From contig JAIEMN010000073.1 of the NCBI GenBank assembly GCA_019752115.1, positions 1 through 50,014 on the forward strand: a DNA stretch of 50,014 nucleotides, in the 5' to 3' direction. This document shows, piece after piece, positions 7,970 through 25,900 of the stretch. The position numbers and the translations under genes were made by a program. The stretch's first letter is position 1, and each line of letters opens with the position of its first letter. Under the pieces are notes generated by a model, which was not told the origin of the DNA, made no database searches, and was given only the letters and a program-made list of their open reading frames with translations. Source of the DNA: Gemmatimonadaceae bacterium (GTDB taxonomy: Bacteria; Gemmatimonadota; Gemmatimonadetes; Gemmatimonadales; Gemmatimonadaceae).

Positions 7970-8012
7970 CGCGGACGTAGCACGGTGGGGAAGCGGCTGT
8001 TACGCCGCTGTT

Positions 8013-8049
8013 AGACACAGACATGAACCTTCCAAGCAGGTTGGTGTCT
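8013..8049. repeat. Two-step inverted repeat after the glycine-zipper gene
   Basis: AGACAC at 8013-8018 pairs with GTGTCT at 8044-8049, and nested inside AACCT (8026-8030) pairs with AGGTT (8038-8042). The position after the lipoprotein stop is suitable for termination, but stems are short. Confidence 0.35.
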
Positions 8050-8119
8050 GAAGGATCGTCGGGTGAAGAGTTGGTGCAGGTGACGGACACGCTTCGTGGA
8101 GGGGGCGTGGGCAACATTG

Positions 8120-8160
8120 CGACCCGGCGTCTCGTGATTCGGCATGAGACGACCGGGTCG
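8120..8160. terminator. Hairpin between convergent lipoprotein and lipid kinase genes
   Basis: CGACCCGGCGTCTC (8120-8133) pairs with GAGACG-A-CCGGGTCG (8146-8160): a 14-bp stem with one bulged base and a 12-base loop. It lies 30 bases past the end of the minus-strand kinase gene and can serve both convergent transcripts. There is no T-run. Confidence 0.55.
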
Positions 8161-8189
8161 TGGTGTATCCACCCCGGCCGATCGTGTGG

Positions 8190-9089
8190 CTAGATCACGA
8201 CGCGCAACGCTGCCGGCCGCACGCGCACGCTCACGACCGGGCCCACCGCCTGGCAGAGTTCTCCATCGGCCTCGAAGATGGGTGGCGCATCGAACTCCAG
8301 CGTGAAGGCCGTTCCGCGCTGCACGCTCACGTGCCGCGAGCGCACGTGGGTCCCGCGGGTCGCGCCGGCAAAGAGGGGCAGCCGGGCGAGCGCCGCCACA
8401 TCGCCGATGTCGATGATATCCAGGGCCCCGTCGTTCACCGATGCATCGGGCGCAATGTGGAAGGCGCCACCGAACCACCGGCCATTCGCCACGACGGTCA
8501 TGAGGCGCCGCTGCGTGATCGTCCGCTCGGCGGTGGTGCCGATGGCGAGTGCCGCGCGAAAGCCGCGATAGCCAAAGAGCGCGCCAAGCGCGGTGAGTAC
8601 GTACGCCGCGGTGCCGCTGAGCCGGGACGGCTGCTGCATCCGACGCAGCACCTCCACGTCAAAGCCAAAGCCGGCCGCATTCACGAACGGCACATCGTCG
8701 ATATATCCGACATCGATCACCTTCGTGGCCCCCCGCCCGACGCGGGCGGCCATCGCGCTCACGTCGTGGGCGGGTGTCCCGAGCGTTTTGACGAAGTCGT
8801 TGCCGGTGCCCGCCGAGAACACCGCGAGCGCCGCTTCCGCGTGGGCCGACTCCGAACGCGCGTCGAGGAGACCATGCGCCGCGTGATGCACGGACCCGTC
8901 GCCCCCGACCACCGCGAGCACGCGGGCGCCGAGCTGCGCGGCCTCGCGCGCAAGGCGCCGTTCGTCACCGGCGCGGGCCGTTTCCACGCGACGCACCGTT
9001 CCGTAGGCGCCGAGGGCACGCTCGACCTCGTTCGCACGATGCGCGGCGCGGCCTTGGCCCGCGGCCGGATTCACGAGCAGGGTGATCAC
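8190..9089 (-). CDS. Diacylglycerol kinase-family lipid kinase (YegS-like)
   Basis: 299 residues when started at GTG 9089 (MITLLVNPAAGQG). The family phosphorylates lipid hydroxyls such as diacylglycerol with ATP. Visible motifs are LVNPAAGQGRA at the N terminus, VVGGDGSVHHAAHGLL (nucleotide-binding GGDG) and FSAGTGNDFVKTLG; these define the kinase catalytic domain. DGALDIIDI and FEADGELCQAVGP are typical of the C-terminal beta-sandwich. An upstream GTG at 9194 would add 35 residues rich in Arg, His and Pro that do not resemble the family, so I favour 9089, although neither start has a ribosome-binding site. It diverges from the DUF4382 lipoprotein gene. Confidence 0.88.
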   Translation of the reverse strand: MITLLVNPAAGQGRAAHRANEVERALGAYGTVRRVETARAGDERRLAREAAQLGARVLAVVGGDGSVHHAAHGLLDARSESAHAEAALAVFSAGTGNDFVKTLGTPAHDVSAMAARVGRGATKVIDVGYIDDVPFVNAAGFGFDVEVLRRMQQPSRLSGTAAYVLTALGALFGYRGFRAALAIGTTAERTITQRRLMTVVANGRWFGGAFHIAPDASVNDGALDIIDIGDVAALARLPLFAGATRGTHVRSRHVSVQRGTAFTLEFDAPPIFEADGELCQAVGPVVSVRVRPAALRVVI

Positions 9090-9296
9090 GCGTTCAGAGA
9101 GAGGGGCGGGCGGGGCGAACGGTCGCACCCTGTGACACTGGGCACCGGAGCGGTGAGGGAAATCGCGCCGACCGGTGCGCTGGGTCACGGACACCGGACG
9201 GCGGCTTCATCAACTTACTCAGCGACGCGGCGGCAGGCGCCAGCGTGCTCCGATGCCGGTGCCGCCCGCCCGCGATGACTTGATCGGGAGACACTC

Positions 9297-10184
9297 ATGA
9301 CGATGACGACCAAGACTGCGCCGTCCACGCGCGCAGCGCTCGCCACCGCCACGCTGGCGATCCTCGCGGCCTGCGGTGACGGCACCGCGCCCAATGCCTC
9401 CGGTCAGGTGGGCGTGGGCTTCCAGTTGGCCACCAACTCGCTCTCGGCGGCCGCGCTGAGCGCGTCCGCCGGCGTGTCGACCACGACCGGTGTGACGGTG
9501 AACGCGACCGACGCCGGACTGACGATCGAGCGCGGCACCGACAAGATCGTCGTGACCAAGGCCCAGCTGGTGGTGCGCGACGTCAAGCTCAAGACCGCCG
9601 TGGCCACCTGCGTGGATGACGACGACAGCAGCAGCGATGTGGCCGCCAGCAAGAGCAGCAGCGGCAGCAGCAGCGACAAGAGCAGCAAGAGTTCGTCCGA
9701 TGACGACGATGATTGCCCGACGATTCGCGTCGGGCCATTCCTCGTGGACATGCCGGTCTCCGGCGCCGACGCGGGGCGAGTGAGCGTCGCGGTCCCCGAA
9801 GGGACGTACTCCAAGGTCCGTCTCACGATTCACAAGGTCACCAGCAGCGACTCGGCGGATCTGGCCTTCCAGAAGGCCAACCCCGACTTCCGCGACATCA
9901 GCGTGCGCCTGGTCGGCACGTACAACGGCACGCCGTTCACCTTTGTGAATGACGTCGAGGCCAAGCTCAACGTGCCGCTCACGGCGCCGCTCAGCATCAA
10001 GGCCGGCGGCGACAACGTGACGGTCACACTCGATCTCGCGCCGTGGTTCGTGAATCCGGCGGGGGGGCTGTACAACCCGGCCGACGCGAACGTGTCGGGC
10101 AGCGTGCGCGCCAAGGTGCAGAACGCCATTCGCTCGGCCTTCCGTGCCTTCCGCGACAAGAACCGCGACGGCAAGGAAGACTGA
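9297..10184 (+). CDS. DUF4382 lipoprotein with Ser/Asp low-complexity insert
   Basis: 295 residues. Signal sequence with lipobox LAAC (Cys about 26). The DUF4382 core is visible as VTKAQLVVRDVKLKTAV, VGPFLVDMPV, VPEGTYSKVRLTIHKV and TVTLDLAPWFVNP, a beta-sandwich fold common in exported proteins. Between two cysteines (ATC...CPT) sits an insert of about 35 residues made almost only of Ser, Asp and Lys, encoded by reiterated AGC and GAC codons. The C terminus DKNRDGKED resembles a calcium-binding EF-hand loop. A GGGAG site 7 bases before the ATG supports the start. A ribbon-helix-helix gene follows two bases after the stop. Ligand unknown. Confidence 0.88.
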   Translation: MTMTTKTAPSTRAALATATLAILAACGDGTAPNASGQVGVGFQLATNSLSAAALSASAGVSTTTGVTVNATDAGLTIERGTDKIVVTKAQLVVRDVKLKTAVATCVDDDDSSSDVAASKSSSGSSSDKSSKSSSDDDDDCPTIRVGPFLVDMPVSGADAGRVSVAVPEGTYSKVRLTIHKVTSSDSADLAFQKANPDFRDISVRLVGTYNGTPFTFVNDVEAKLNVPLTAPLSIKAGGDNVTVTLDLAPWFVNPAGGLYNPADANVSGSVRAKVQNAIRSAFRAFRDKNRDGKED

Positions 10185-10429: not shown

Positions 10430-10507
10430 CCGCACGCAGGGCCCACGGGTGAGCGGACCAACCGGGGGAGCAGGGCGTCCGAAGTGCGGAGGGGCATGAC
10501 GGACGCA

Positions 10508-10549
10508 ATACGGGGGCGTAGCGGCAGGGATGCCGTTACGCCCCCGTAT
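10508..10549. terminator. Strong hairpin between convergent ribbon-helix-helix and acnA genes
   Basis: ATACGGGGGCGTAGCGGCA and TGCCGTTACGCCCCCGTAT pair over 19 positions with one mismatch, around a loop GGGA. It lies 27 bases beyond the acnA stop on the minus strand and 78 bases beyond the plus-strand stop, as expected for a bidirectional terminator without a T-tract. Confidence 0.75.
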
Positions 10550-10576
10550 CGTGTGGGGCTGTGCTGCGCGGCTCGA

Positions 10577-13261
10577 TTACTTCGCGACCAGACTCCGCAG
10601 CACGTACGGCAGGATGCCGCCGTTCTTGTAGTACTGCATCTCTTCCGGCGTGTCGATGCGGCACCGCGCGCTGAACTGCTTCACCGAGCCATCCGACGCC
10701 GTGGCCTTCACCGTGAGCGTGGCGCGTGGCGTCAGGCTCTCGCTCAACCCCTCGATGTCGTAGGTCTCGAAGCCCGTGAGACCGAGGCTCTGCCGCGTTT
10801 CGCCGTTCACGAACTCGAGCGGCAGCACGCCCATGCCCACCAGGTTCGAGCGGTGAATGCGCTCGAAGCTTTCGGCGATCACCGCGCGCACGCCGAGCCG
10901 CATCGTGCCCTTGGCCGCCCAGTCACGGCTCGAGCCCGTGCCGTACTCCTTGCCGGCGATGACGATCTGCGGCACGCCGGCGGCCTGACGGGCCATCGAC
11001 ACATCGTAGATCGCTTCCGGCTCGGCGCCGGGCGCGGTGGCCGTCCACCAGCCTTCCTTGCCGCCGGTGAGTTCGTTCTTGAGGCGGATGTTCGCGAACG
11101 TGCCGCGCATCATCACCTCGTGGTTGCCGCGCCGCGCGCCGTACGAGTTGAAGTCCTTCTTCTCGACGCCGAGGCTGTTGAGATACTTCCCGGCCGGGCT
11201 CGCCGCCGCGATGGAGCCGGCGGGGGAAATGTGGTCGGTGGTGATCGAGTCACCGAACATACCCAGCACCTTGGCGCCGGCGATCGGGCGAATGCCCGGC
11301 GGCGTCATGGTCATGCCGTCGAAGTACGGCGGGTTCTTCACGTAGGTGCTGTGGCCATCCCACGCGTACTGATTGCCGGTGGGCGCCGCGATCTCCTGCC
11401 AGTACTTGTCGCCCTTGAAGACGTCGGCGTACTGCGTGGTGAACTGCTCACGCTTCACGCTTTCGAGAATGGTGTCCTCGACTTCCTTCGGACTTGGCCA
11501 GATGTCCTTGAGGAACACGGGGCCATCCGTGCCCATGCCGAGCGGCTCGGTGGCGAGGTCGATGTCCATGCGACCAGCCAGCGCGTACGCCACCACGAGC
11601 GGCGGGCTCGCGAGGTAGTTGAAGCGCGTCTGCGGGTTCACGCGCCCCTCGAAGTTGCGATTGCCCGAGAGGACCGCCGCCACGTTGAGCTTGCCCGTGT
11701 CGATCGCTTCGCTGATCTCGGTGGGGAGCGGACCCGAGTTGCCGATGCACGTCGTGCAGCCGTAGCCGACCACGTTGAAGCCGAGTGCATCGAGGGAGCT
11801 CATGAGCCCGGCCTTGTGGAAGTACTCGGTGGCAACCTTGGAGCCCGGTGCCAGCGAGGTCTTCACCCAGGGCTTGGTGGTGAGCCCCTTGGCGACCGCC
11901 TTCTTCGCCAGGAGGCCAGCCGCGAGCATCACGCTCGGGTTGCTGGTGTTCGTGCAGCTCGTGATGGCGGCGATGACCACCGCGCCATCATGCAGCTCGA
12001 AGTGCTGCCCCTTGTAGGTCACGTTCTGCGCCGTGCCCACGCCCGTCGCCGCATGCTGCGCGGCCACGGCTTCGGCGTACTTGGCCTTGCTCTCCGAGAG
12101 CGCCACGCGATCCTGCGGGCGCTTGGGGCCGGCGAGGCTCGGCACCACCGTGCTCAGGTCGAGTTCGAGCGTGTCGGTGAAGACCGGGTCCGGCGTGTCG
12201 TCGGTGCGGAAGAGCCCCTGCGCCTTGCAGTAGGCTTCCACCAGCGCGACCTGCTCGTCGCTGCGGCCGGAGAGGCGCAGGTACTTGAGCGTTTCGGCAT
12301 CGACCGGGAAGAAGCCCATCGTGGCACCGTACTCGGGCGCCATGTTGGCGATCGTGGCGCGGTCGGCGAGCGCGAGGCTCGAGAGCCCCGGGCCGTAGAA
12401 CTCGACGAACTTGCCGACGACCTTCTTCTTGCGGAGCATCTCGGTGCAGGTGAGCACCAAGTCCGTGGCGGTGGCGCCCGCGGGGAGCTTGCCGTGCAGC
12501 TTGAAGCCGATGACTTCGGGGATGAGCATGCTCACCGGCTGGCCGAGCATGGCGGCTTCGGCTTCGATACCACCGACACCCCAGCCCAGCACGCCGAGGC
12601 CGTTGATCATCGTGGTGTGCGAGTCCGTACCCACGAGCGAATCGCAGTAGGCGAGCGTCTCGCTGCCGTCCTGCGCCGTGAACACCACCTGCGCCAGGTA
12701 CTCGAGATTCACCTGATGGCAGATGCCGGTGCCCGGCGGGACTGCGCGGAAGTTGCGGAGCGCCGTCTGGCCCCACTTGAGGAACTGGTAGCGCTCGCCG
12801 TTGCGCTCGAACTCCAGTTCGGTGTTGAGCAGCAGGGCGGCTTCGCTGCCGTATTCATCCACCTGCACCGAGTGGTCGATTACGAGGTCGACCGGCTGGA
12901 GCGGATTGATCTTCGTCGGGTCGCCGCCGAGCGCCACCATGGCGTCGCGCATCGCGGCCAGGTCCACCACGCAGGGGACGCCGGTGAAGTCCTGCAGGAG
13001 GACGCGGGCGGTGCGGAAGGCAATTTCCTGGTCGACCGGCGCCTTCACGTTCCAGCGCGCGAGGGCCTCGACGTCGGCCTTCTTCACGAAGGCATTGTCC
13101 TCACCGCGGAGCAGGTTCTCGAGGAGAACGCGGAGGGAGAAGGGGAGCGACTTCGCCGTGGAGCCCGCGAGGCCATCGAGGGCGTCGAGACGGAAGTACG
13201 CATACTGACGGTCGCCCACCTTCAGGGTGGAGCGGCTGCCGAACGAATTGGGATGCGACAT
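10577..13261 (-). CDS. acnA: Aconitate hydratase A
   Basis: 894 residues, the normal length for AcnA/IRP1-type aconitases. Interconverts citrate and isocitrate in the TCA cycle and uses a [4Fe-4S] cluster. Cluster ligands are visible in [13 protein letters not shown] and [14 protein letters not shown] (one Cys plus the CxxC pair). Other family blocks are [26 protein letters not shown] near residue 200, [10 protein letters not shown] in the swivel domain and [20 protein letters not shown] near the C terminus. It starts at ATG 13261 (MSHPNSFGS) without a Shine-Dalgarno sequence. It stands alone, with a terminator downstream and about 220 bases before the next gene upstream. A TATTAC box near 13380 could be its -10 element. 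Confidence 0.97.
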
Positions 13262-13460
13262 GCGGGGGGAGTGTCCTGCGCGCGCCCACCCCTCGGGCGG
13301 CCACGCGCGTTCGGTGCGGAGCCACTCATCGCGCCGTGGCGCCCCCCGCGGGAGCGCCCGGTACCGACGAGGCTACCGGGTAATATCGGCGGGTGCACCG
13401 AAATTCGCTGCTGGGCGGTATCCGGCTGTAAGGATCTGGCCGAAAGGGCTGTCCCCCCGT

Positions 13461-13476
13461 GGGGGCCGAGGCCCCC
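13461..13476 (-). terminator. GC-rich hairpin after the histidine kinase gene
   Basis: GGGGGCC, loop GA, GGCCCCC: a compact 7-bp stem starting 8 bases past the kinase stop on the minus strand. The rest of the 13262-13483 gap holds the probable acnA promoter region but no gene. Confidence 0.5.
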
Positions 13477-13483
13477 GACGCCC

Positions 13484-14887
13484 TCAGCGCGCCAGCGGCA
13501 ACCGCACCGTGAACTCGGTCCGACCGGGCTCCGAGGTCACGGCGATCTCCCCGTCGTGCTGCTTGATGAGGCGGCGCACGATATCGAGGCCGAGCCCTGA
13601 CCCCTGGCCGACCCCCTTGGTGGTGAAGAACGGGTCGAACATGCGCCGCTGGACCTCGGGCGGGATGCCGGCGCCGTTGTCCACCACCCGCACCACCAGG
13701 GCGGTGGGCTCGCCACTGGCGGACACCGTCACCCGGCCTCCCATCGGCACCGCGTCGAGCGCGTTGTCGATGAGGTTCATCCACACCTGATTGAGCTCGG
13801 CGCCCACGGCGTGCGCGCGGGGCAGGTCGTCGGGCATGTGGACCTCGACCTGCGCCTGGCGGGCCCGCGTCTTGGCGGCCAGCATGACCAGCGTGTCGTA
13901 GACGCCCTGCCGGATATCCACCGGCTCGGGGCGCGGGGCGTGGTCCATGAAGGTGAAGCCCTTCACCGCGCCCACGAGCCCGTGGATGCGGGTGGCGGCC
14001 GTCTCGATGTCGCCGGAGAGCATGCGCACGTTGCAGCCGGCGGCCATCCACTTGAGCACGACGTTGAGCACGTCGCCCGGCGCAACGGCCGCAAGCGCGT
14101 CGAGTGCCTCGATCGTCACGGCCGTTTCGGAGAGCGGCCCCGCACAGCGCTCATCGGCATCATGGTCGGCGAGCCAGTCGGCGAGTTCGTCCTCGCGGTC
14201 CGAGCGGCCGAGTGCCGAACGCATCATGGTGGGCGCCGCGCGCAGGCACATCGCGCGTATCTCATTAATGCGCGCCAGCTGCGCCGGCGTGAGGCCGGCC
14301 GCGCCCAGTTTGCGCGCCGCCTCTTCACTCACCGCGATGCTCTCGGTGAGCAACTTGGCACCGCGCACCACCGCTGACGCGGGATTGTTGAGCTCATGCG
14401 CGAGCCCCGCCGCCAGCTTGCCGAGGGAGATGAGCTTGTCATCGCGCAGGTCGGCCTGCGTGAACTGCCGGGCGCGGTCCACCATGGAGTGCACGCAGAA
14501 CGCGGTCAGCTCGGGGCATTCGCGCGTGAGCTCGGGGAACAGGGCGCGATCGATGGTGAGCATGTCGGCCTCGGCCTCCACCACCACATCGTTGGGCGGC
14601 GTGGCCCCGCGCGAGTAGGGCATCGTGCCCCCGATCTCGCCCGCCTGCCACTCGAACACCTTGTGCATGCCGGCGCCGCGGTCCACGCGAATGACGAGGT
14701 GGCCGCGAAAGAGCACGAACATCCGGATGGCTTGTTCGCCCTTCCGGGTGATGACATCGCCCAACGCGTGCGCTTCGCGCACCCCGTGGGCCGCCAGCCA
14801 GGCGCGCTCGCTGGGGGGCAAGGCGCCGGTGGCACGATGCGCGGCGAGCTGTTCGTCGAGATCGGAGGCGATGGATTCGGGCGTCAT
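13484..14887 (-). CDS. Soluble histidine kinase with N-terminal cyclic-nucleotide-binding-like domain
   Basis: 467 residues, no membrane segment. Residues about 25-140 form a Crp/cNMP-binding-like beta-barrel (GDVITRKGEQAIRMFVLFRGHL, FEWQAGEIGGTMPYSRG). The dimerisation and phosphoacceptor region begins at LISLGKLAAGLAHELNNP, with His164. The ATPase domain shows the N box (NQVWMNLIDNALDAV), DNGAGIP, and FDPFFTTKGVGQGSGLGLDIV. Such kinases are usually encoded next to a response regulator fused to a thioredoxin-reductase-like protein, and that gene lies directly upstream here with only 4 bases between them, so the two are very probably partners. Whether a cyclic nucleotide is really bound cannot be judged. 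Confidence 0.93.
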   Translation of the reverse strand: MTPESIASDLDEQLAAHRATGALPPSERAWLAAHGVREAHALGDVITRKGEQAIRMFVLFRGHLVIRVDRGAGMHKVFEWQAGEIGGTMPYSRGATPPNDVVVEAEADMLTIDRALFPELTRECPELTAFCVHSMVDRARQFTQADLRDDKLISLGKLAAGLAHELNNPASAVVRGAKLLTESIAVSEEAARKLGAAGLTPAQLARINEIRAMCLRAAPTMMRSALGRSDREDELADWLADHDADERCAGPLSETAVTIEALDALAAVAPGDVLNVVLKWMAAGCNVRMLSGDIETAATRIHGLVGAVKGFTFMDHAPRPEPVDIRQGVYDTLVMLAAKTRARQAQVEVHMPDDLPRAHAVGAELNQVWMNLIDNALDAVPMGGRVTVSASGEPTALVVRVVDNGAGIPPEVQRRMFDPFFTTKGVGQGSGLGLDIVRRLIKQHDGEIAVTSEPGRTEFTVRLPLAR

Positions 14888-14891
14888 GGGC

Positions 14892-16553
14892 TCAGACCGT
14901 CCGCAGATAGCGGTGCACTGAATACACGGCCGCAGAGCCTTCGCCCACGGCGGCGGCTACGCGGCGATTGGCGCCTGAACGGACGTCGCCGGCCGCAAAC
15001 ACCCCGGGCATGCTGGTTTCGAACGCATACGGCTCGCGTGGCAGCGGCCACGCCTTTGGCTTGCCGAACTCCCGCGGCAGATCGGCGCCGGTGGCAATGA
15101 AGCCCGAGTCGTCGCAGACGAGCGTACCGGTGAACGCCTCGGTGTGCGGCTTCACGCCGATGAAGATGAACATCCCTTCCACAGCGAGCGGAGTCACGGC
15201 GCCGGTCTTCACGTGGGTGAGCTCGATCCCCTCGAGGGCGCCGGTCCCGGTCACGGCCGACACTTCGACTTCCGCGATCACGTCGATGTTCGGCGTCGCG
15301 CGAATGCGATCGACGAGATACTGCGACATCATGGGGGCGAGATCCGGAGCGCGTAGCACCACGGTGACTTTCCGCGCATAGCGGGAGAAGAACAGCGCGC
15401 CCTGTCCGGCGGAGTTGGCACCACCGATCACGCAGATGTCGCGTCCCTTGTACCGCGCCGCTTCGGTCATGGCCGCGCCATAGTAGACACCCACGCCATG
15501 GAACGCCTCGAGCCCCGGCGTAGGCAGCCGCCGCGCACTCATCCCGGTGGTGATGACCACGGTGTACGTCGTGAGCTCAGTGCCGTCGGCGAGGGTCACG
15601 ACGCGATACGGGTCCTCTCGGCGGAGCCCCACCACTTCCTGCCCCGTGAGGAGCTCGGCGCCGAAGCGTCGTGCCTGCGCACTCGCGCGCTGGGCGAGAT
15701 CGGCACCGGTCACGCCAGCGGGGAAGCCGAGGTAGTTCTCGATCATGGAGCTCGTTCCCGCCTGGCCGCCCGGCGCCTGCCCCTCGATGACCACGGTGCG
15801 CAGCCCTTCCGAGGCGGCATAGACCGCGTTGGCGAGCCCGGCGGGGCCGCCTCCAACCACGACCACGTCATAGAGTGGCCGGGCGGCTTCGGTCTGCATC
15901 CCGGCCTTGGCCGCGAGCTCCACCGACGAGGGCGCGACGAGATGCGAGCCATCGGGGAAGAGGATCAACGGCAGGCGCGTGAGGTCACCGGCCAACTGCG
16001 TCGCGAGGGCGCGTGCGACCGCGTCCTGATCGAGATCGACCCACTCGTACGCGACGCGATTGCGAGATAGAAACTCCTTGGCTTCGAACGACTGCGGCGA
16101 CCACTGCGAGCCCAGAATGCGAATGCCTTCGAACGCCGGGGTGACCTGCGCCCGCCATTCGGCGAGCAGATCGTTGAGCACGGGGAAGAGGCGCTCCTCC
16201 GGCGGATCCCACGGCTTCATGAGGTAGTGATCGAGCCCGACGCTGTTGATGCCGGCGATCGCCACGTCGGTATCGGCGTAGGCGGTCAGCAGCACGCGCT
16301 TGGACTGCGGATGGATGGCGCGCACCTCGGCCAGAAACTCGATGCCCGTCATTTCCGGCATGCGCTGGTCGACCAGGAAGAGCGCGATGGGCGTGTTGCG
16401 GGTGGCGAAGGCGCGGGCCGCTTCCAGCCCTTCGGCGGGGGTTCCCGCCTTCACAATGCGATAGTCCGCGCGGTACTGCTGGCGCAGGTCGCGCTCGATC
16501 GCCGACAGCACCGCCAGATCGTCGTCAACCGCAAGAAAGACCGGCTTGGCCAC
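14892..16553 (-). CDS. Response regulator receiver fused to glutaredoxin-like and thioredoxin-reductase-like flavoprotein, both CxxC motifs lost
   Basis: 553 residues from GTG 16553 (GAGG 8 bases upstream). Residues 1-125 are a receiver domain with phospho-acceptor Asp62 (FLVDQRMP) and Lys113. Residues about 140-215 have a glutaredoxin-like fold, but the active-site WCPxC is WSPQS (151-155). Residues 227-553 are a thioredoxin-reductase-like flavoprotein with the FAD motif VVVGGGPAGL, the NADPH motif VIGGANSAGQ and the closing GVFAAGDVRSG; its redox CATC is replaced by GAAM at 359-362. Only two cysteines remain, neither paired, so classical disulfide reduction is impossible. It may act as a phosphorylation-controlled NAD(P)H/FAD sensor or oxidase. 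The cognate kinase follows after 4 bases. Confidence 0.93.
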   Translation of the reverse strand: MAKPVFLAVDDDLAVLSAIERDLRQQYRADYRIVKAGTPAEGLEAARAFATRNTPIALFLVDQRMPEMTGIEFLAEVRAIHPQSKRVLLTAYADTDVAIAGINSVGLDHYLMKPWDPPEERLFPVLNDLLAEWRAQVTPAFEGIRILGSQWSPQSFEAKEFLSRNRVAYEWVDLDQDAVARALATQLAGDLTRLPLILFPDGSHLVAPSSVELAAKAGMQTEAARPLYDVVVVGGGPAGLANAVYAASEGLRTVVIEGQAPGGQAGTSSMIENYLGFPAGVTGADLAQRASAQARRFGAELLTGQEVVGLRREDPYRVVTLADGTELTTYTVVITTGMSARRLPTPGLEAFHGVGVYYGAAMTEAARYKGRDICVIGGANSAGQGALFFSRYARKVTVVLRAPDLAPMMSQYLVDRIRATPNIDVIAEVEVSAVTGTGALEGIELTHVKTGAVTPLAVEGMFIFIGVKPHTEAFTGTLVCDDSGFIATGADLPREFGKPKAWPLPREPYAFETSMPGVFAAGDVRSGANRRVAAAVGEGSAAVYSVHRYLRTV

Positions 16554-16607
16554 GAAAAAAACCTCAACGTAGAGGGCAGGGGGACCAACATACGCCCCCG
16601 CCCCACA

Positions 16608-17702
16608 CTACGCACTCGCGTCGAGTCGCTCCGCGACCACATCGCGCGCACACACCGGCCCCACCACGATCGCCTCAGTGGGGCAGCAGCGGGCGAGCGC
16701 CTGTTCGCGGGGGGAAAGCTCCTGTCTGGGTACCAGCGGTTCGGCCTTCCCATCGCGATCGAGGCGCACGAGGTCCGGATGGCGCGCCACGCACAGCGCG
16801 CAGCCGGTGCAGCGCTGGCGATCGATCTGGATGGCCATCTCCTCGCGCGGGAAGATGCCATCCGGGGCCGCGAGGACTTCGGGCAGGTGGCGCAGCGCGT
16901 CGCGGGTGGCGGTGTATCCCACTTCGAGCAGTTCATCGACATGCGCGAAGGAGAACCAGCCGATGTGCGCCACCTTGGGGCGGACCAGCAGGAGCGGTGG
17001 AGTGGACCAGCGCTCGAGCGCGGCCTGCTGCTGATGGTGCATCATCATGGTCGCCGCCCGCATGAAAATCGAGGCAAAGCCCTGCTCAGCCACTCCGCGG
17101 GCCACCGGGACATCGGCGATGCCGACATCGATGGCCACGAGCGCGTCCACCGACAGGCCGGCAATGGCGATGGGGAGATTGTCGGTGGTGCCGCCGTCGA
17201 TGCACACGCGATCGCCCACCACGCCGGGCGGAAAGAAGCCGGGGAGCGCGCAGCTCGCGTAGATGGCATCACGTACCGAGACCGCCGTCAGCCCCGGCGT
17301 GCCGAAGACTAGCGGCGTGCCGCGCTCGAGATCGACGGCGGTCACCAGCAGCGGCGTGGGCAGATCCTCGAAGGTGCCCGGCTGCACCAGTTCATCGGCC
17401 AGCGCGCGCAGCGGGGCCTCGAGGTAGATGGAGCGCGACAGCATGCGCTCCATCAGCATCCCCATGTGATTGATGCGGAAGAGGTCGCGGCGCCGAAAGC
17501 GGCGGGCGCGTTCGGTCATCTCGTCGAGCCCGCGCCCGGAGGCCGCGGCGGCGGCGATCATGGCACCGATGCTCGTACCCGCGTACAGCGCCGGTCGGAT
17601 CCCCGCCTCATGCAGGGCGCGCAAGGCGCCCACGTGGGCCATCCCCTTCAGGGCGCCCCCGCCCAACACGACCCCGATCCGGGGCCCATGCGTGCCGTTC
17701 AT
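16608..17702 (-). CDS. Patatin-like phospholipase fused to a C-terminal ferredoxin-like domain
   Basis: 364 residues from ATG 17702. The patatin domain carries the oxyanion loop LGGGALKGMAHVG (13-25), the nucleophile motif GTSIG with Ser44 and the catalytic Asp in IDGGTTDN (Asp169), so it should hydrolyse acyl lipids. Residues about 294-350 look like a single-cluster ferredoxin: RCTGCALC (Cys298, 301, 304) followed 35 residues later by CCP (Cys339/340). Such a fusion of lipase and iron-sulfur domain is unusual. It diverges from the response regulator gene at 17736 with only 33 bases between and precedes the flavoprotein-regulator gene by 54 bases on the same strand. No signal peptide is present. 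Confidence 0.9.
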   Translation of the reverse strand: MNGTHGPRIGVVLGGGALKGMAHVGALRALHEAGIRPALYAGTSIGAMIAAAAASGRGLDEMTERARRFRRRDLFRINHMGMLMERMLSRSIYLEAPLRALADELVQPGTFEDLPTPLLVTAVDLERGTPLVFGTPGLTAVSVRDAIYASCALPGFFPPGVVGDRVCIDGGTTDNLPIAIAGLSVDALVAIDVGIADVPVARGVAEQGFASIFMRAATMMMHHQQQAALERWSTPPLLLVRPKVAHIGWFSFAHVDELLEVGYTATRDALRHLPEVLAAPDGIFPREEMAIQIDRQRCTGCALCVARHPDLVRLDRDGKAEPLVPRQELSPREQALARCCPTEAIVVGPVCARDVVAERLDASA

Positions 17703-17722: not shown

Positions 17723-17728
17723 TAGATT
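17723..17728 (+). promoter_or_regulatory. -10 box of the OmpR-type regulator, leaderless arrangement
   Basis: TAGATT is followed by 7 bases and the ATG at 17736; there is no Shine-Dalgarno sequence. The whole divergent intergenic region is only 33 bases, so promoter elements of this gene overlap the start of the patatin gene. Confidence 0.45.
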
Positions 17729-17735
17729 CCCCGTC

Positions 17736-18428
17736 ATGCGCGTACTGCTGGTCGAAGATGATGACACGTTGCGCGAAAGCGCCACGGCGTTCCTCCGGGC
17801 CGCCGGATTTGCCGTGGATCCGGCGGCCACCGGCAAGATGGCACGCGAACTCGCGGCCGTCAGTCCGTACGACGCCGTGGTGCTCGACATCGGCCTGCCC
17901 GACGCGGATGGATATACCCTCTGCACCGCGTTTCGGGCCCGGGTCCCGGCGCCGCGCATCCTGATGGCCACCGCGCGTGATGCGGTGGAGGACCGCATCA
18001 CTGGATTGGATATCGGCGCCGATGACTACTTGGTAAAGCCGTACGCGCTGGGGGAGCTGGTCGCGCGTGTGCGGGCGCTGCTGCGACGCCCGGATCATGC
18101 GGCGCCGGTGCTGCTGCAGGTCGAGGACCTCCTGCTCGACCCGGCCACGCGGGAGGCGCGGCGGGGCGACCGGCTCATCCCGCTGACGACCAAGGAGTTC
18201 GCCGTGCTCGTGGTGCTCATGCGCGCCCCGGGACGCGTACTGACCCGCGAGTTTATCGGCGAACACGCCTGGGACGACAACTTCGACCCCGGGAGCAACG
18301 TCATCGACGTGTACATGGCGCGGCTGCGGAAGAAGGTCGACGCCGCCGGCGAAGAGCCGCTTATCGCCACGGTGCGAGGAGCGGGCTATCGTCTCGGTCC
18401 GCCGCCGTCGCGCCGGATCCTGCGGTGA
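17736..18428 (+). CDS. OmpR-family response regulator
   Basis: 230 residues from ATG 17736 (MRVLLVEDDDTLRES). Receiver domain 1-115 with acidic pocket EDD (7-9), phospho-acceptor Asp51 (VVLDIGLPDADG) and Lys101 (DDYLVKPYALGEL). The winged-helix domain spans about 125-225: LIPLTTKEFAVLVVLMRAPG, FDPGSNVIDVYMARLRKKV, and TVRGAGYRL. The kinase gene begins 7 bases after its stop, so they form a two-component operon. Sited just before a czcCBA-type operon, it may be a CzcR/CusR-type metal-responsive regulator, but that is inference from proximity. Confidence 0.95.
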   Translation: MRVLLVEDDDTLRESATAFLRAAGFAVDPAATGKMARELAAVSPYDAVVLDIGLPDADGYTLCTAFRARVPAPRILMATARDAVEDRITGLDIGADDYLVKPYALGELVARVRALLRRPDHAAPVLLQVEDLLLDPATREARRGDRLIPLTTKEFAVLVVLMRAPGRVLTREFIGEHAWDDNFDPGSNVIDVYMARLRKKVDAAGEEPLIATVRGAGYRLGPPPSRRILR

Positions 18429-18435
18429 GCGGGCG

Positions 18436-19857
18436 ATGAGCCCAACCGCTCGTGCTGAGGTCAGCCGGCCGCGCATCCGCCTGCGCTTCACCGCGCTCTA
18501 TGCGGCGACGCTGCTGGTGGTGCTGCTGTCGGCCGCGCTGATCGCCCGCTTTGCCATTCGCCGCACGCTCGAGCAGGAGTTCGAGAACTCCGTGCGCAGT
18601 TCGGCCGGGCTGGTCAGTCAATTCTTCCGGACGGAAGTGGCCGAGTATCGCACCACCGAGGCGACGCTCGCCCACATTATGAGTGAGCTGGTCTTCGAAG
18701 ATCGGGCCATCCGCATCATTCAACCCGACGGCCGCATCTTCCGCGGTGGTCGCGCAGCACGGCCGCGCCCGCATCTCGACCTGGGGGAGATCCGGTCGGT
18801 CCGCTTCCCCCTCGACGAAGCGCTGGCGCCGGGGTGGAAGGTGGAGATCGATGCCAATCTGTCCAGCACCCACGCGCTGCAGCATCGCATCGATCAGTGG
18901 CTGGGGATTGGTATCCCGCTCTTCGTGCTGACCGCCGCCATCGCCGGCTGGTGGTTGACCGGACGGACGCTGCGACCGGTGGGCGCCATGGCCGACGCCG
19001 CGGCGCGCATCGCGCCGGCCAGCGGCGCGCGGCTCCCCATCGACAATGCCGACGACGAACTGGGGCGGCTCGGCGCGCGCTTCAATGCGCTGCTCGACCG
19101 GCTCGACGGCGCGCTCACGCAGCAGCGACAGTTTCTCGCGGACGCGGCGCACGAACTGCGCACGCCGATCGCGCGGATTCGCGCGCGGGTAGAGGTGTCA
19201 CAGCTCCAGTTGCAGCAAGCGCGCGCTGGTGGGGCGGACATCGATCCGCAGCGCCTCGCCACGCTCGCCGCGCTCGACGACGAGCTGCGCTCGGTGTCGC
19301 AGCAGGTGGAGCAGCTGCTCCAGCTGGCGCGCGCGGATGCGGCGGGTGATGAGGGCACCGTGGAACTCGCCCCCTGCTACCTCGACGATCTGGTGGCCGA
19401 TGAAACGCCGCGCTGGCAGCCGCAGGCCGCGCATCTGGGCATCACGCTCGCGTTCGATGACCTCGAGGAAACGCCGATCGTGGGCGATGACACGCTGCTG
19501 CGTCGCCTGCTGGGCGTACTGCTCGACAACGCCCTGCGCTACACGGCTGCCGGCGGGCACGTTCAACTGCGCGTGCACCCCGAGGGGCGCTTTGCCCGAC
19601 TCGATGTGGACGACGATGGGATGGGCGTGCCCCCCGCCGAGCGTCCGCGCATCTTTGATCGGTTCTTCCGCGGCGCCGAGGCGCGCGCCAAGCGCGCCGA
19701 TGGCAGTGGGTTGGGGCTCGCGATCGCGAGCTGGATCGTGCGGCGGCATGGGGGCCGCGTGGCCGTGGGCGAGAGCCCGCTCGGGGGCGCACGGTTTACC
19801 GTGCACCTCCCGCTGCGCTCAGCAGACCGGCAGGTCGCGTCGGGGCACGAAGTATGA
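18436..19857 (+). CDS. Membrane sensor histidine kinase
   Basis: 473 residues. TM1 at about 18-40 and TM2 at about 155-176 enclose a periplasmic sensor of about 115 residues without a recognised domain. A HAMP linker follows (LRPVGAMADAAARIA), then the phosphoacceptor AAHELRTPIARIRA with His239, and an ATPase domain with LLDNALRYTA, DDDGMGVPPAERPRIFDRF and GSGLGLAIASWI. This is a standard EnvZ/CzcS-like architecture and the partner of the regulator just upstream. Its last 39 bases overlap the 3' end of the FliS-like gene on the other strand. Codon use is like its neighbours. Confidence 0.95.
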   Translation: MSPTARAEVSRPRIRLRFTALYAATLLVVLLSAALIARFAIRRTLEQEFENSVRSSAGLVSQFFRTEVAEYRTTEATLAHIMSELVFEDRAIRIIQPDGRIFRGGRAARPRPHLDLGEIRSVRFPLDEALAPGWKVEIDANLSSTHALQHRIDQWLGIGIPLFVLTAAIAGWWLTGRTLRPVGAMADAAARIAPASGARLPIDNADDELGRLGARFNALLDRLDGALTQQRQFLADAAHELRTPIARIRARVEVSQLQLQQARAGGADIDPQRLATLAALDDELRSVSQQVEQLLQLARADAAGDEGTVELAPCYLDDLVADETPRWQPQAAHLGITLAFDDLEETPIVGDDTLLRRLLGVLLDNALRYTAAGGHVQLRVHPEGRFARLDVDDDGMGVPPAERPRIFDRFFRGAEARAKRADGSGLGLAIASWIVRRHGGRVAVGESPLGGARFTVHLPLRSADRQVASGHEV

Positions 19858-20199
19858 CCGCGCACTCGGCTGCGGCTGCATCGCGCGGCGCCACGCGTCG
19901 CGGAGCGTGCGCAGGCACTGCGCCGCGGCCACGAAATCGTGCACATCCACCGATTCTTCGCACCATGCATAGAGCGCATCGAAGCTGCGCGAGGCGGCGG
20001 AGTCGAGATCGAGCGCACAGCGCAGCACGCTGATCGCTTCGCGCGCGCCCCGCTGGTCGAAGGCCTCGCAGGCGTTGATGGCGCGATCGTACGCCCGCAC
20101 CAGCCGGGCGAGAGGGTCGCTCGACGGGCGATCGGCGTCGATCACCACTGGAGTAAAGACAGGCGTCGGTACGGGCACGGCGGGTGGAGCTGAGGTCAC
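19819..20199 (-). CDS. FliS-like helical protein (orphan)
   Basis: 126 residues if started at GTG 20199; longer in-frame starts (GTG 20361, ATG 20406) exist, and none has a good ribosome site, so the start is uncertain. The segment LVRAYDRAINACEAFDQRGA, then EAISVLRCALDLD, LYAWCEESVDVHDFVAAA and LRTLRDAW follows the spacing of the flagellin chaperone FliS (YDGAI..., ..IL..L...LD, LYDY..., LR.AW). No flagellar gene is nearby. It converges on the histidine kinase gene and overlaps it by 39 bases, and it diverges from the efflux operon. It may be a chaperone for an exported protein, or a true FliS away from its cluster. Confidence 0.65.
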   Translation of the reverse strand: MTSAPPAVPVPTPVFTPVVIDADRPSSDPLARLVRAYDRAINACEAFDQRGAREAISVLRCALDLDSAASRSFDALYAWCEESVDVHDFVAAAQCLRTLRDAWRRAMQPQPSARSYFVPRRDLPVC

Positions 20200-20382
20200 C
20201 TGAATGGCGCTGAGCTTCCGCGCCTCGTCTAGGGAGATCGGCTCGGGATTCTCGCAACTTGAATATTTGCCTCGACTTCGACGTGACAAAGCGCACGGAG
20301 CGTGCGGAAGTGACGGGCGCGCCGCGCGCGAAACGTCCCGTCCCCGGCCCCGGGGGTTCACGTTTGATTCATGATCCGGTGA

Positions 20383-20388
20383 TAGGCT
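20383..20388 (+). promoter_or_regulatory. -10 box of the czcCBA-type operon, leaderless arrangement
   Basis: TAGGCT ends six bases before the ATG at 20395 and no Shine-Dalgarno sequence is present. No clear -35 hexamer is seen at the right distance. The 20200-20394 region otherwise contains only AT-richer sequence near 20255-20285 that could hold the promoter of the FliS-like gene. Confidence 0.45.
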
Positions 20389-20394
20389 GCGAGC

Positions 20395-21750
20395 ATGAAC
20401 CCCCATTCAGTGCACTTCACCCGGCGGGTCGGTACTCCGCGCTGGCTGCCGGGCGTCCTGCTGGCCGTCCTCCTGACGGCCTCCGGTGCGAAGGCGCAGT
20501 CCCGTGCGCCGTCCGGTACGCCACGCGCCACCCCAACGATGGACCCGGCGGCGCTCGATCTGGCCAGCGCCCTCGCGACCGCTCGGCGGTCCGGCCCGCT
20601 GGCGGCCCTCGTGTCGGCGCGGCGTGATGTGGCGGTGGGCCGCGTCCGTGAGACGGCGCAATGGCCCAACCCGACGCTCGAATGGCGGCGCGAGAACCTC
20701 GCGAGCCCGCTCGCGCCAGACATCTTCGCCACCGCCTATATCCCCCTCGATATCACCGGGCGGCGGCTGGCGCTGCGCCAGTCCGTTGGCGCGGGCACGC
20801 TCCGCGCAACGGCCGATGCCGAAGCGGAGCGTCGGAACGCCGAGATCGAGGTGGCCCGCGCCTGGTTGCGCGCTGCCGTCGCCGACGGGCTCCGCGCGCT
20901 GGTGCAACGGCAGTATGACGCGCTGCGCGAGATCGCCGATGTCGATGCGCAGCGGTTGCGCGAAGGGCTCGTGGCAGAAGCAGTCGGGCTGCGCACGTCG
21001 CTCGAAGCCGACCGGGCGCGCGTCGCGGTGGTCTCGGCGAACGCCGAAGCATCGCGCGCTCGCGCCGAACTCGCGCGCCTGATGGGAGTCCGCGACGATT
21101 CCATCAGTACGCTGGCGCCGCTGATCGCGCCGACGTTGCCGGCACCACCTGATTCGCTGCTGGTGCGACGCGCGGCGCTGCGGCTCCGCCCGGAAGTGCA
21201 GGCGCGCGATGCGGCCGTGCAGGAAACCCAGCGGCGGCTCGCCGCCGAGCGGCGCGGTCTCTTCGGGGATCTGCAGCTGCAGGGTGGAACCAAGCAGACC
21301 GGCGGCTTTCAGACCGGGCAGATCGGATTCGGCATGCCGATGCCGTTCTTCAATCGCAACGGCGGCGCCCGCCAGCGCGCCGGTGGCGAAGCGATGGAAG
21401 CGCGCATTCTACGCGCCGATGTCGAGCGCGCCGTGAGCGGTGCGGTGAGTGCCGCCTGGCGCACCTACATGGACGTGCGCGCGGTGGCCCGCGATGCGGC
21501 GACGTTCGATGCCCGCGGTCGCGAGGTCTCGCGCATTGCGCGCGTGGCCTATCGCGAAGGCCATGTGACACTCACGGAACTGCTCGACGCCGAACGCGCG
21601 GCCTTCGACGCGATGCAGGCGCATCTGCGCTGGGCGGCCGACGCCTGGCTCGCGCGCCTTGAACTTGAACGCGCCATCGGCGCACGGCTCGACGCCGATG
21701 CCCCGTTGGACCTTCCTTTGCTCTCCACCGCGACCGCGCCGGGCTTCTGA
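20395..21750 (+). CDS. TolC-family outer-membrane efflux protein, CzcC-like
   Basis: 451 residues with an N-terminal signal peptide (cleavage near AKAQS). It has two long helical repeats typical of outer membrane efflux proteins; WPNPTLEWRRENLASP is the usual N-terminal strand region, and RVAYREGHVTLTELLDAERA is the conserved equivalent in the second repeat. As first gene of an operon with a periplasmic adaptor and an RND pump, it should form the outer-membrane channel of a tripartite heavy-metal exporter. The adaptor gene starts two bases after its stop. The promoter appears to place the start of transcription on the ATG. Confidence 0.93.
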   Translation: MNPHSVHFTRRVGTPRWLPGVLLAVLLTASGAKAQSRAPSGTPRATPTMDPAALDLASALATARRSGPLAALVSARRDVAVGRVRETAQWPNPTLEWRRENLASPLAPDIFATAYIPLDITGRRLALRQSVGAGTLRATADAEAERRNAEIEVARAWLRAAVADGLRALVQRQYDALREIADVDAQRLREGLVAEAVGLRTSLEADRARVAVVSANAEASRARAELARLMGVRDDSISTLAPLIAPTLPAPPDSLLVRRAALRLRPEVQARDAAVQETQRRLAAERRGLFGDLQLQGGTKQTGGFQTGQIGFGMPMPFFNRNGGARQRAGGEAMEARILRADVERAVSGAVSAAWRTYMDVRAVARDAATFDARGREVSRIARVAYREGHVTLTELLDAERAAFDAMQAHLRWAADAWLARLELERAIGARLDADAPLDLPLLSTATAPGF

Positions 21751-21752
21751 TC

Positions 21753-22979
21753 ATGCGATTCACGTCTTCCTTCGCCCCCCTGGCGCGCGCCGCGGTGCTC
21801 CTCACGCTGGGCACCGCCTGCGGCAAGAGTGCTGATCAACCCGCGGTCGCAGCGGGTGCCGCTACCGGAGCTGCCCCTGCGCTGACCGACACCACCACCT
21901 TCTCCGCTGAAGCCGTGCGTATCGCCGGATTGACGGTCGACACGGCGCGTACACTCCCGTGGCAGACCACCGTCACCGTGCCGGGCCGCCTGATGCTCGA
22001 CCCGCAGTCGCTCGAAACGATCGGCTCCATTGTGGAGGGGCGCATCACGCATACGCTGGTGCGCGTGGGTGATGTGGTGAAGCCCGGCCAGGTCCTCGTG
22101 CTCATTCACAGCCACGAGATCATGGACGCCCGAAGCGGCCTCGCGCGTGCCAAGGCCGCCGTCGCGGCTGCGGAAGCGGAGCGCGATCTCGCCATCTCGG
22201 CAGCTGATCGTGCCCATCGCCTGTTTGACGCGAAGGCCATGTCGCGCGCGGAGGTGGAGCGCGCCGATGTCGCCCGACGCGTCGCGCTGTCGGGCTACGA
22301 TCAGGCCACCGCCGAACGGCAGCGGTATGAATCGCTCATCGAGCATCTCGTGGGCAGCGGGCCGATGCCGGCCGAAGCCGATGAGCATGACGTGCTCATT
22401 CGCACCCCGATCGCCGGCATCGTCACCGCTCGTGAGGCGCAGCCGGGTACCGTGGTGCTGCCGGGTACGCCGCTGGTCACGGTGGGCAGCACCGACCGCT
22501 TGCAGTTGCAGATGCACCTGGCGGAATCCGCGGCGGTGGGCGTGGCGGCGGGAAGCACGGTGCGATTCACGTTGACCGAGGACCCCACGGAGGTGGGCGA
22601 GGCGGTGGTGACCCGTGTGGCGCCCACGGTGGATACGCTCACCCGCACGATCGAGGTGATCGCCCAGCCGAAGGGCAAGAGCAAAGGGCGCGCCGAGTCG
22701 TTCGTGCAGGCCGAGATTCTGGGGCAGCATGGTACGCCGTCGCTGGTGGTGCCGGCGGCCGCGGTGCAGGCGCTCGACGGGGACACGGTGGTCTTTGCCG
22801 CCGAGCCGCGCGGTGCCGGCTTGTTCGTGAAGGCGATGCCGGTGCGGGTCGGCCGGCGCAGCACGCAGCGGGTGGAACTGGCGGCGGGCGTCGCTGAAGG
22901 CACGGCGGTCGTCGTGAAGGGCGCCGCCATCGCGAAGGCGGAGTTACTCAAGCGGCGCGCCGCCGGCGGCGGAGAGTAA
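21753..22979 (+). CDS. RND efflux periplasmic adaptor (membrane fusion protein), CzcB-like
   Basis: 408 residues. The N-terminal signal ends LGTACGKS, a possible but atypical lipobox (Gly at -3), so it may be a lipoprotein. The biotinyl/lipoyl hairpin is recognisable from SIVEGRITHTLVRVGDVVKPG and from IRTPIAGIVTAREAQPGTVV, with a helical hairpin of about 70 residues between, and a beta-barrel around VRFTLTEDPTEVGEAVV. It links the inner-membrane pump to the TolC-like channel. There is no His-rich metal-binding tail. It lies two bases after tolC and three bases before the pump gene, indicating strict coupling. Confidence 0.94.
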   Translation: MRFTSSFAPLARAAVLLTLGTACGKSADQPAVAAGAATGAAPALTDTTTFSAEAVRIAGLTVDTARTLPWQTTVTVPGRLMLDPQSLETIGSIVEGRITHTLVRVGDVVKPGQVLVLIHSHEIMDARSGLARAKAAVAAAEAERDLAISAADRAHRLFDAKAMSRAEVERADVARRVALSGYDQATAERQRYESLIEHLVGSGPMPAEADEHDVLIRTPIAGIVTAREAQPGTVVLPGTPLVTVGSTDRLQLQMHLAESAAVGVAAGSTVRFTLTEDPTEVGEAVVTRVAPTVDTLTRTIEVIAQPKGKSKGRAESFVQAEILGQHGTPSLVVPAAAVQALDGDTVVFAAEPRGAGLFVKAMPVRVGRRSTQRVELAAGVAEGTAVVVKGAAIAKAELLKRRAAGGGE

Positions 22980-22982
22980 GCG

Positions 22983-25900
22983 ATGCGCACGCTCATCCAC
23001 TTTGCGCTCAAGCGCAAAGGCGTCATCGTTGGGCTGACGCTCGGCCTGATGGCGGCCGGCCTCTATGCGCTGCAGCACGTGCCGTTCGACGCCTTTCCGG
23101 ATCTCACCGGCACCCGGGTTGAAGTCATCACCGTCGCTCCCGGGATGGCCCCCGAGGAAGTCGAGCGGCTGGTCACGTATCCCATCGAAAGCACACTGAT
23201 GGGCGTCCCCGGCGCCGAAGGGGTGCGCTCGGTGTCCAAGTTCGGACTGTCGCTCGTCACGGTGCCGTTCCCCGACAAGATGGACGTGTACTTCGCCCGG
23301 CAACTGGTCCAGCAACGCCTGAACGACGCCAAGGGCGCGCTTCCAGCCGGCGTGGAACCGGCGCTCGGGCCGGTCTCGACGCCGATGGGTGAGTTGTATC
23401 AGTATGTGCTGACGAGCGACTCGCTGTCGCTCACCGAGCTCAAGACCCTGCATGACTATGTCGTGCGGCCCCGCCTGCGCACCGTGCCCGGCGTCTCCGA
23501 GGTGAACTCGTGGGGCGGCCTCACCGAGCGCGTGGATGTCGAGGTCGATCCGGTCCGGCTTGCCGCGCGCCGGCTGAGCCTCACCGATGTCCAGCGTGCG
23601 CTGGCCAACAATACGCTCGCCTTCGGGGGCAGCTATCTGGAGCAGGGGGGCGAACGCTACACGCTGCGCGGCCTGGGGCGCGTGGAGAATGTGGCCGAGG
23701 TGGAGCGCGTGGTGGTCGGCTCGTATCTCGGCGCGCCGGTTCGGGTGGGCGATGTGGCACGCGTGAAGCTGGGAGCCCTGCCGCGCAACGGGGCGGTGAC
23801 GAAGGATGGTGCCGGCGAAGTGGTCAGCGGCATGGTGCTCAAGCTGAAGGGCGCCGACTCCCGCCAGGTCATTGCCGATGTCCGCGCGCGCATGGAGGAG
23901 ATCAAGAAGAGCCTCCCGAAGCATGTGACGGTGACCCCGTTCTACGATCAGACCGAGCTGGTGGCGCGAACCTCGCGGACGATCGTGAAGAACCTGATCG
24001 AGGGCGGCCTGCTCGTGATCGCGGTGCTCTTCCTCTTCCTGCGCAACGTGCGGGCGGCGCTGATCGTGGCGTCGGTGATCCCGATCTCAATGCTCATTGC
24101 CTTCATCGGCATGGCGCTCTTTGGCTACTCCGCCAACCTCATGAGTCTGGGCGCGCTGGACTTCGGCCTCATTGTGGACGCGTCGGTCGTCATGATTGAA
24201 AGCTTCATCCGCCGCATCGAGGCGCATCGGGACATGCACCGACTGGGGCTCTTTGAGCGAGCCGCGGTGGAGGTGGGGCGCCCGATCCTTTTCGGCATTG
24301 CGATCATCGTGGCGGTGTACATCCCGATTTTCACACTCGACGGGATGGAAGGGCGCATGTTCAAGCCGATGGCCTTCACGGTCGTCTGCGCCGTGCTCGG
24401 GTCGCTGCTGCTCGCGCTGACGTATGTGCCGGCGGTGTCGGCATGGGCCCTGCGCGATGGGGAAGCGGAGCCAGCGCCGTGGCTGGAGCGGCTCACGGCT
24501 CGCTATCGGCGGCTGCTCGATCGCGTGCTGGCGCGGCCGCTGCCCATTGTCGTCACGGCGGCCGTGGTCGTGGTGGTCTCCGTGTTCTCGCTGACGCGCA
24601 TCGGTACCGAGTTCATGCCCAAGCTCGATGAAGGATCGATTCTGATCACGACGCGGCGCATGCCGAGCATCGATCTGGCCGACGCCACGCGCCTCTCCAC
24701 GGCGGCCGAGCGCATTCTGCGCACGTTCCCGGAAGTCGTCACGGTGGTCACCAAGGAAGGGCGCCCGGATCTCGCGACCGAGGCGATGGGGCTCTTCGAA
24801 GGCGACATGTACGTGATCCTCAAGGACCGCAGCGAGTGGAAGACCGCGCACGACCGCGAGGGGCTCGTGGCCGCCTTCGATTCGGCGCTGGCCGTGGTGC
24901 CGGGGCTCGAGGTGTCGTTCACGCAGCCACTCGCGATGCGATTGGATGAAGCCGAGAGCGGCATCAAGACCGATCTCGGGGTGAAGGTGGTCGGCCCGAG
25001 CATCGAGCAGAACCAGGCGATCGCCGAGCGCATTCGGCGGATCATTGCGGGCGTGAGTGGCTCGGCTGACGTGGGCGTGGAGATCGCGGACGGCACCGGT
25101 CAGGTGCGGATGCAGATCCGACGCGAGGCGCTGGCACAGTACGGCGTGTCGGTGGCCGATGTACGCGATGCGATCGATCTCGCGATGGGATCGCAGACGG
25201 CCGCCGAGCTGATCGATGGCTTCCGCCGCGTAAGCATCGTGGTGACGCTCCCCGAGCCGTTTCGCGTGGACGCGGCGGCGATCGGCCGCCTGACGCTGCG
25301 CGCACCGGGTGGCGAGCTTGTGCCGCTGTCGGCGGTCGCGGAGATCCAGAGCACGACGGGCCCGGAGCTGATCGGGCATGAGGATGCGCAGCGCCGTTCG
25401 CTGGTGCTCAGCAACGTGCGTGGGCGGGACCTCGGCAGCTTCGTGCAGGAAGTGCGAACGCGGGTCGCAGCGGACGTCACACTACCGCCGGGCGTCTTTC
25501 TCGAGTGGGGTGGGCAGTATGAGAACCAGCAGCGGGCGATGTCCCGGCTCGCGATCGTCGTGCCCGCAGCGCTGCTGCTGATCTTCGGGTTGCTCTACCT
25601 GTCGTTCCGCTCCATTCCCCAGGCGGTGCTGGTCCTGTCGAACGTGCCGTTCGCCCTGGTGGGGGGCATCGCCGCGCTCTGGCTGCGCGGGCTCAATCTC
25701 AACCTGTCGGCGAGCATCGGCTTCATTGCGCTCTTCGGCATTGCCGTGCTCAACGGCGTCGTGATGGTGGAGCATCTCAATCATCTGCGGCACAGCGACC
25801 ATCTCGATGATGCCACGGTGCTGGGGCGTGTGCGCCGTGGCGCCGCCGACCGGCTGCGCCCGGTCCTCATGACGGCGCTGGTGGCGAGCCTCGGGTTTGT

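Follow-up and report, generated by a model that had tools for sequence, protein, structure and literature searches.

The flavoprotein described here has its nearest known counterparts in two groups of fused proteins. The cyclic nucleotide-binding domain-containing thioredoxin-disulfide reductases (CNBD-TrxR) carry the cyclic nucleotide-binding domain (CNBD) on the reductase itself, and the REC-TrxR proteins, named "FAD-dependent oxidoreductase" in RefSeq, consist of a receiver followed by a TrxR-like flavoprotein, with a kinase encoded next door. The REC-TrxR fusion is on record in a census (PMC5847659). Another protein of the locus combines a patatin domain, as in the phospholipases PlpD, RssA and CapV, with a domain resembling single-cluster ferredoxins (1VJW, P. 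furiosus ferredoxin). The genes for flavoprotein, kinase and patatin-ferredoxin lie side by side in the window, by which we mean the whole 50,014-nucleotide stretch of a Gemmatimonadaceae bacterium (contig JAIEMN010000073.1) that was analysed, and the first-pass annotation had joined them into one possible redox-signalling module. The named best matches of the window place its genome near Gemmatimonas. We herein report that the stretch holds two unrelated gene units, and that nothing was found in support of a redox module of three genes. The reading that we favour, at a probability of roughly 85%, is that of two independent units, namely a kinase-flavoprotein pair (16553-13484) and a patatin-ferredoxin with an aconitase neighbour. 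The features concerned are as follows.

17702-16608, minus strand: patatin-ferredoxin gene, 364 aa (ORF call and Pfam domains)
16607-16554, minus strand: spacer from patatin stop to flavoprotein start, 54 bases, with a GC hairpin, GAGG and T7 before GTG
16553-14892, minus strand: receiver-flavoprotein gene, 553 aa, GTG start (ORF call and Pfam domains); receiver, cysteine-less glutaredoxin-like domain and TrxR-like FAD/NADPH flavoprotein, with Asp62 as predicted phospho-acceptor
14887-13484, minus strand: soluble histidine kinase gene, 467 aa (ORF call and Pfam domains); N-terminal degenerate cNMP-binding-like domain, H-box His164, long insert, HATPase_c
13390-13262, minus strand: acnA upstream region, GCCGATATTNCC...GTAGCCTCGTCGGTACCGG...CGCGATGAGTGGCTC, kept across the genus
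13261-10577, minus strand: aconitase gene acnA, 894 aa, conserved downstream neighbour of patatin-ferredoxin

The physical description given by the first-pass annotation was accurate: three co-directional genes follow one another, 54 bases separate the patatin and flavoprotein genes, and the latter has its own ribosome site, a GAGG ahead of the GTG. All three are encoded by the minus strand, and their key residues are intact. The kinase gene begins 4 bases past the flavoprotein stop. The spacer folds into a strong hairpin (-29.2 kcal/mol, z -2.3), and its T-run begins some bases beyond the stem, before the GTG, which does not make a clear terminator. Hairpin and T7 (16554-16607) could stop or attenuate read-through; nevertheless, read-through from patatin to flavoprotein is possible, given the common strand, the short gap and the lack of a clear terminator. 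A promoter scan of the stretch returned no match, and such a scan carries little weight in this phylum. Genes for an OmpR-type regulator, a HAMP kinase and CzcCBA-like efflux (17736-26090) diverge from patatin-ferredoxin at a distance of about 33 bases, in an order that is kept within the genus. The plus-strand open frame of 1038 aa lying antisense over acnA (10484-13600) is probably a high-GC artefact.

The flavoprotein matches Response_reg (2e-14) and Pyr_redox_2 (3e-36) in Pfam. Asp62, which had been proposed as phospho-acceptor, is the right residue, and is invariant together with D10, D11, T90 and K113 in 14 aligned sequences, so that an intact receiver (acidic pair, phospho-Asp and Lys) is fused to a TrxR-like FAD/NADPH module. 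This module contains the FAD motif GGGPAG at 234 and the nucleotide motif GGANSAGQ at 377, the core Gly residues of both being invariant in the 14 receiver-flavoprotein sequences. Two features had been overlooked in the first reading: a glutaredoxin-like domain without cysteines at about 144-216 (mycoredoxin model, E 3.8e-9), and the stretch VYYGAAM at 356, which stands where TrxR has its CxxC. Only Cys374 and Cys480 occur in the protein, and no cysteine is conserved among the aligned relatives. As judged from its sequence, the flavoprotein is not a disulfide reductase, because the CxxC is replaced by VYYGAAM and no conserved cysteine is left; in keeping with the missing CxxC, assignment as a thioredoxin reductase was rejected, TIGR01292 scoring 237 bits against a cut-off of 343. 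The cysteine-less glutaredoxin-like plus TrxR-like module is common to this protein and CNBD-TrxR (41-44% identity), whereas a receiver takes the place of the CNBD here and a CNBD-like domain is found on the kinase. Compared with the REC-TrxR proteins, which have the same domain order, no important difference was found.

The kinase is identified by His164 within LAHELNNP and by an HATPase_c match (PF02518, 5.5e-27). Its N-terminal domain matches cNMP_binding (PF00027) at 9e-5, with 22.9 bits against the Pfam cut-off of 27.5, and the usual Arg motif of the phosphate-binding cassette was not seen in the kinase alignment by eye. In a three-sequence search, a kinase profile picks up CNBD-TrxR proteins at 2e-17 to 3e-21, and at the level of sequence the cNMP-binding-like domain is related to the CNBD fused in cis to the reductase in CNBD-TrxR. 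The sensor domain of the partner kinases varies: it is cNMP-binding-like in most, whereas by eye L094 and L096 seem to have a PAS-like domain in its place and Nostoc (L186) a receiver.

That kinase and flavoprotein recur together in bacteria had been stated in the first-pass annotation and is borne out, in Gemmatimonadota and four other phyla. Thirteen loci in Gemmatimonadota, the window included, combine an intact receiver with sufficiently long flanking sequence, and an adjacent kinase was found in all 13, placed before or after the receiver-flavoprotein depending on the locus. In four more distant relatives (L098 to L101), a search of 8 kb around the gene showed no kinase of this type, and the receivers (near 8000-9650) are degenerate: parts of the acidic pocket, the phospho-acceptor or the Lys are missing. 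The pair also occurs on plasmid records of Deinococcus, Gloeothece, Caballeronia (with two kinases), Streptomyces and Tsukamurella, the genes often overlapping, and on a Nostoc plasmid record with the two genes about 2.6 kb apart. Kinase and flavoprotein are thus a true and widespread two-gene unit, belonging to a known but uncharacterised type of two-component system whose output is an enzyme, and the match between intact receiver and adjacent kinase makes it testable as a two-component pair. The flanks of the pair have no recurring third gene within Gemmatimonadota. A possible third partner is seen in Streptomyces and Tsukamurella, where the kinase gene overlaps at its end with a gene for a UBP-type zinc finger (L189, 9110-9463; L190, 9137-9487). 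As a third partner this zinc finger was rejected, a PF02148 match being absent from the present genome.

From these features we infer a route of signalling for the pair. The kinase would sense through its degenerate cNMP-binding-like domain and autophosphorylate on His164, from which the phosphate would pass to Asp62 of the receiver, and the phosphorylated receiver would in turn control the attached FAD/NADPH reductase. Because the TrxR disulfide is lost, the reductase would most likely pass electrons from NADPH via FAD to another acceptor, or else report the NADPH/FAD state. A less likely alternative is that the two-component system controls a reductase of ferredoxins, flavodoxins or quinones in general, which could serve several partners, perhaps patatin-ferredoxin among them, without any dedicated module; the TrxR-like fold, the FAD and NADPH motifs and the absence of active-site cysteines are consistent with it, although no ferredoxin gene recurs beside the flavoprotein. 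It is rather unlikely that the flavin module works without turnover, as an NADPH or redox input acting back on the kinase via the receiver. Such a role would fit the loss of the CxxC and the kinship between the CNBD-like domain of the kinase and the CNBD fused to the same reductase in CNBD-TrxR, but both nucleotide motifs are kept in the 14 sequences, as expected of a working enzyme.

The second unit is built around a separate conserved protein, a PlpD-like patatin joined to a one-cluster ferredoxin. It matches Patatin (6e-36) and Fer4_15 (2e-10) in Pfam, and possesses the GGGALKG oxyanion loop, Ser44 in GTSIG, Asp169 in DGG and the patatin fold of a patatin-like phospholipase, followed by Cys298, Cys301, Cys304 and Cys340-Pro (CxxCxxC...CP) in a ferredoxin fold, where a 4Fe-4S cluster is predicted. 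The four cluster cysteines are invariant in 35 aligned sequences from two phyla, Gemmatimonadota and Planctomycetota. In an AlphaFold2 model (mean pLDDT 89.5), residues 7-276 match PlpD (5FQU/5FYA) best (Z 33, 29% identity over 248 residues), and residues 288-350 match the single-cluster ferredoxins (Z 9-10, rmsd 1.2-1.5), which share the CxxCxxC...CP pattern. Patatin fold and Ser-Asp dyad are common to this protein, PlpD, RssA and CapV; unlike these phospholipases, it has a C-terminal ferredoxin domain and no transport barrel, and unlike the single-cluster ferredoxins, its ferredoxin domain is fused to a patatin. The protein is a putative lipase with a putatively occupied cluster. A CBASS phospholipase effector was considered and rejected, since NCBIfam CBASS_lipase gave 54.8 bits against a cut-off of 200 and PADLOC returned generic patatin matches only. 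A search for patatin-ferredoxin on plasmids gave no match, and in the open-access literature we found no paper that deals with fusions of patatin and ferredoxin or that connects patatin and aconitase. A second cluster is suggested for the Planctomycetota proteins (L146-L157) by their cysteines, about seven in number and arranged as CxxCxxCxxxC...C....C...CP. Upstream of patatin-ferredoxin, several genera of both families have a divergent gene, adjacent or close by, for a kynureninase-like class V aminotransferase (L069, L077, L083, L084).

Of the 52 genomes of the family, 46 have acnA downstream of patatin-ferredoxin on one contig, 42 of them at a distance of up to 5 kb and four at 5-22 kb; in the remaining six, acnA is on another contig and the patatin genes lie at or near contig ends. 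Among the named Gemmatimonadota loci it was found in 33 of 37, and one locus (L140), with 8 kb downstream of patatin and no acnA, is a true exception. In a second family, patatin-ferredoxin was not found beside acnA, and the linkage may for this reason be an inherited order rather than a functional one. Aconitase itself is a labile 4Fe-4S enzyme. We consider it doubtful that patatin-ferredoxin acts with aconitase as a lipase gated by its Fe-S cluster or by redox, the state of the cluster coupling membrane lipid turnover to the TCA cycle, and that this explains why the two genes are linked in about 20 genera of one family. The Fe-S patatin with aconitase as a standing neighbour is only a mildly unusual part of the locus, and the only one.

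The interval between patatin and acnA behaves as a variable slot. Five genomes of the same genus have patatin and then acnA after 173-254 bases, without kinase or flavoprotein between them. In 26 genomes the interval is 71-442 bases; otherwise it is filled, by a GGDEF-EAL gene (G074), an M20 peptidase (L079, L119, L120, L125, L129), an S9 peptidase (L139), a glyoxalase (L079), an ORF without Pfam match (G039) or, in the window, the kinase-flavoprotein pair. Ahead of acnA, conservation between the window and the genus holds from about 13390 on, and this region marks the far edge of the kinase-flavoprotein pair. The outer sides of the patatin-acnA pair change between genera, and only the genus and its closest relatives share the flanks seen here (czcRS-czcCBA upstream, other genes beyond acnA). 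The two genomes with the closest acnA (95% and 93%) lack both the kinase-flavoprotein pair and patatin, and DNA homology to them breaks at 13418 and resumes at 17723. A repeat search around the pair for marks of insertion found short, chance-like repeats only, and the G+C of the pair equals that of its surroundings. In the two-unit reading, the pair would have entered the slot between patatin-ferredoxin and acnA, or would have been kept there in this lineage only.

The proposal that patatin-ferredoxin is an added part of the kinase/flavoprotein module was set against co-occurrence in 200 genomes of one phylum, Gemmatimonadota. Full-length patatin-ferredoxin is present in about 85 of the 200 and full-length receiver-flavoprotein in 14; both genes occur in six, adjacent in the window's genome only and split between contigs in each of the remaining five. 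Eight of the 14 flavoprotein genomes are without full-length patatin-ferredoxin, most patatin-ferredoxin genomes are without the flavoprotein, and no other panel member of the same genus has a full-length receiver-flavoprotein. A second genome collection supplied 80 further patatin loci, of which about 50 include the ferredoxin domain; no gene for the flavoprotein or the kinase turned up in the available flank of up to 8 kb a side. The three-gene order is not conserved, patatin-ferredoxin shows no neighbour association with the other two genes in either set outside the window's genome, and the module was rejected on this ground, which the first-pass annotation had itself named as refuting. That the kinase-switched flavoprotein reduces the patatin's ferredoxin domain, making lipid hydrolysis depend on redox state, is highly improbable, since the genes are unassociated elsewhere, apart in the five other genomes that have both and mostly found one without the other, even though they adjoin in the window, the Fe-S cysteines are intact and some TrxR-like enzymes that lack the CxxC reduce ferredoxin, as do TrxR-type FNRs such as YumC.

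A false three-gene module is thereby removed, and each gene is shown in its proper place. The patatin-ferredoxin fusion is conserved in two phyla, Gemmatimonadota and Planctomycetota, and has a linked aconitase gene in one family; it would be of importance if its cluster gates the lipase.
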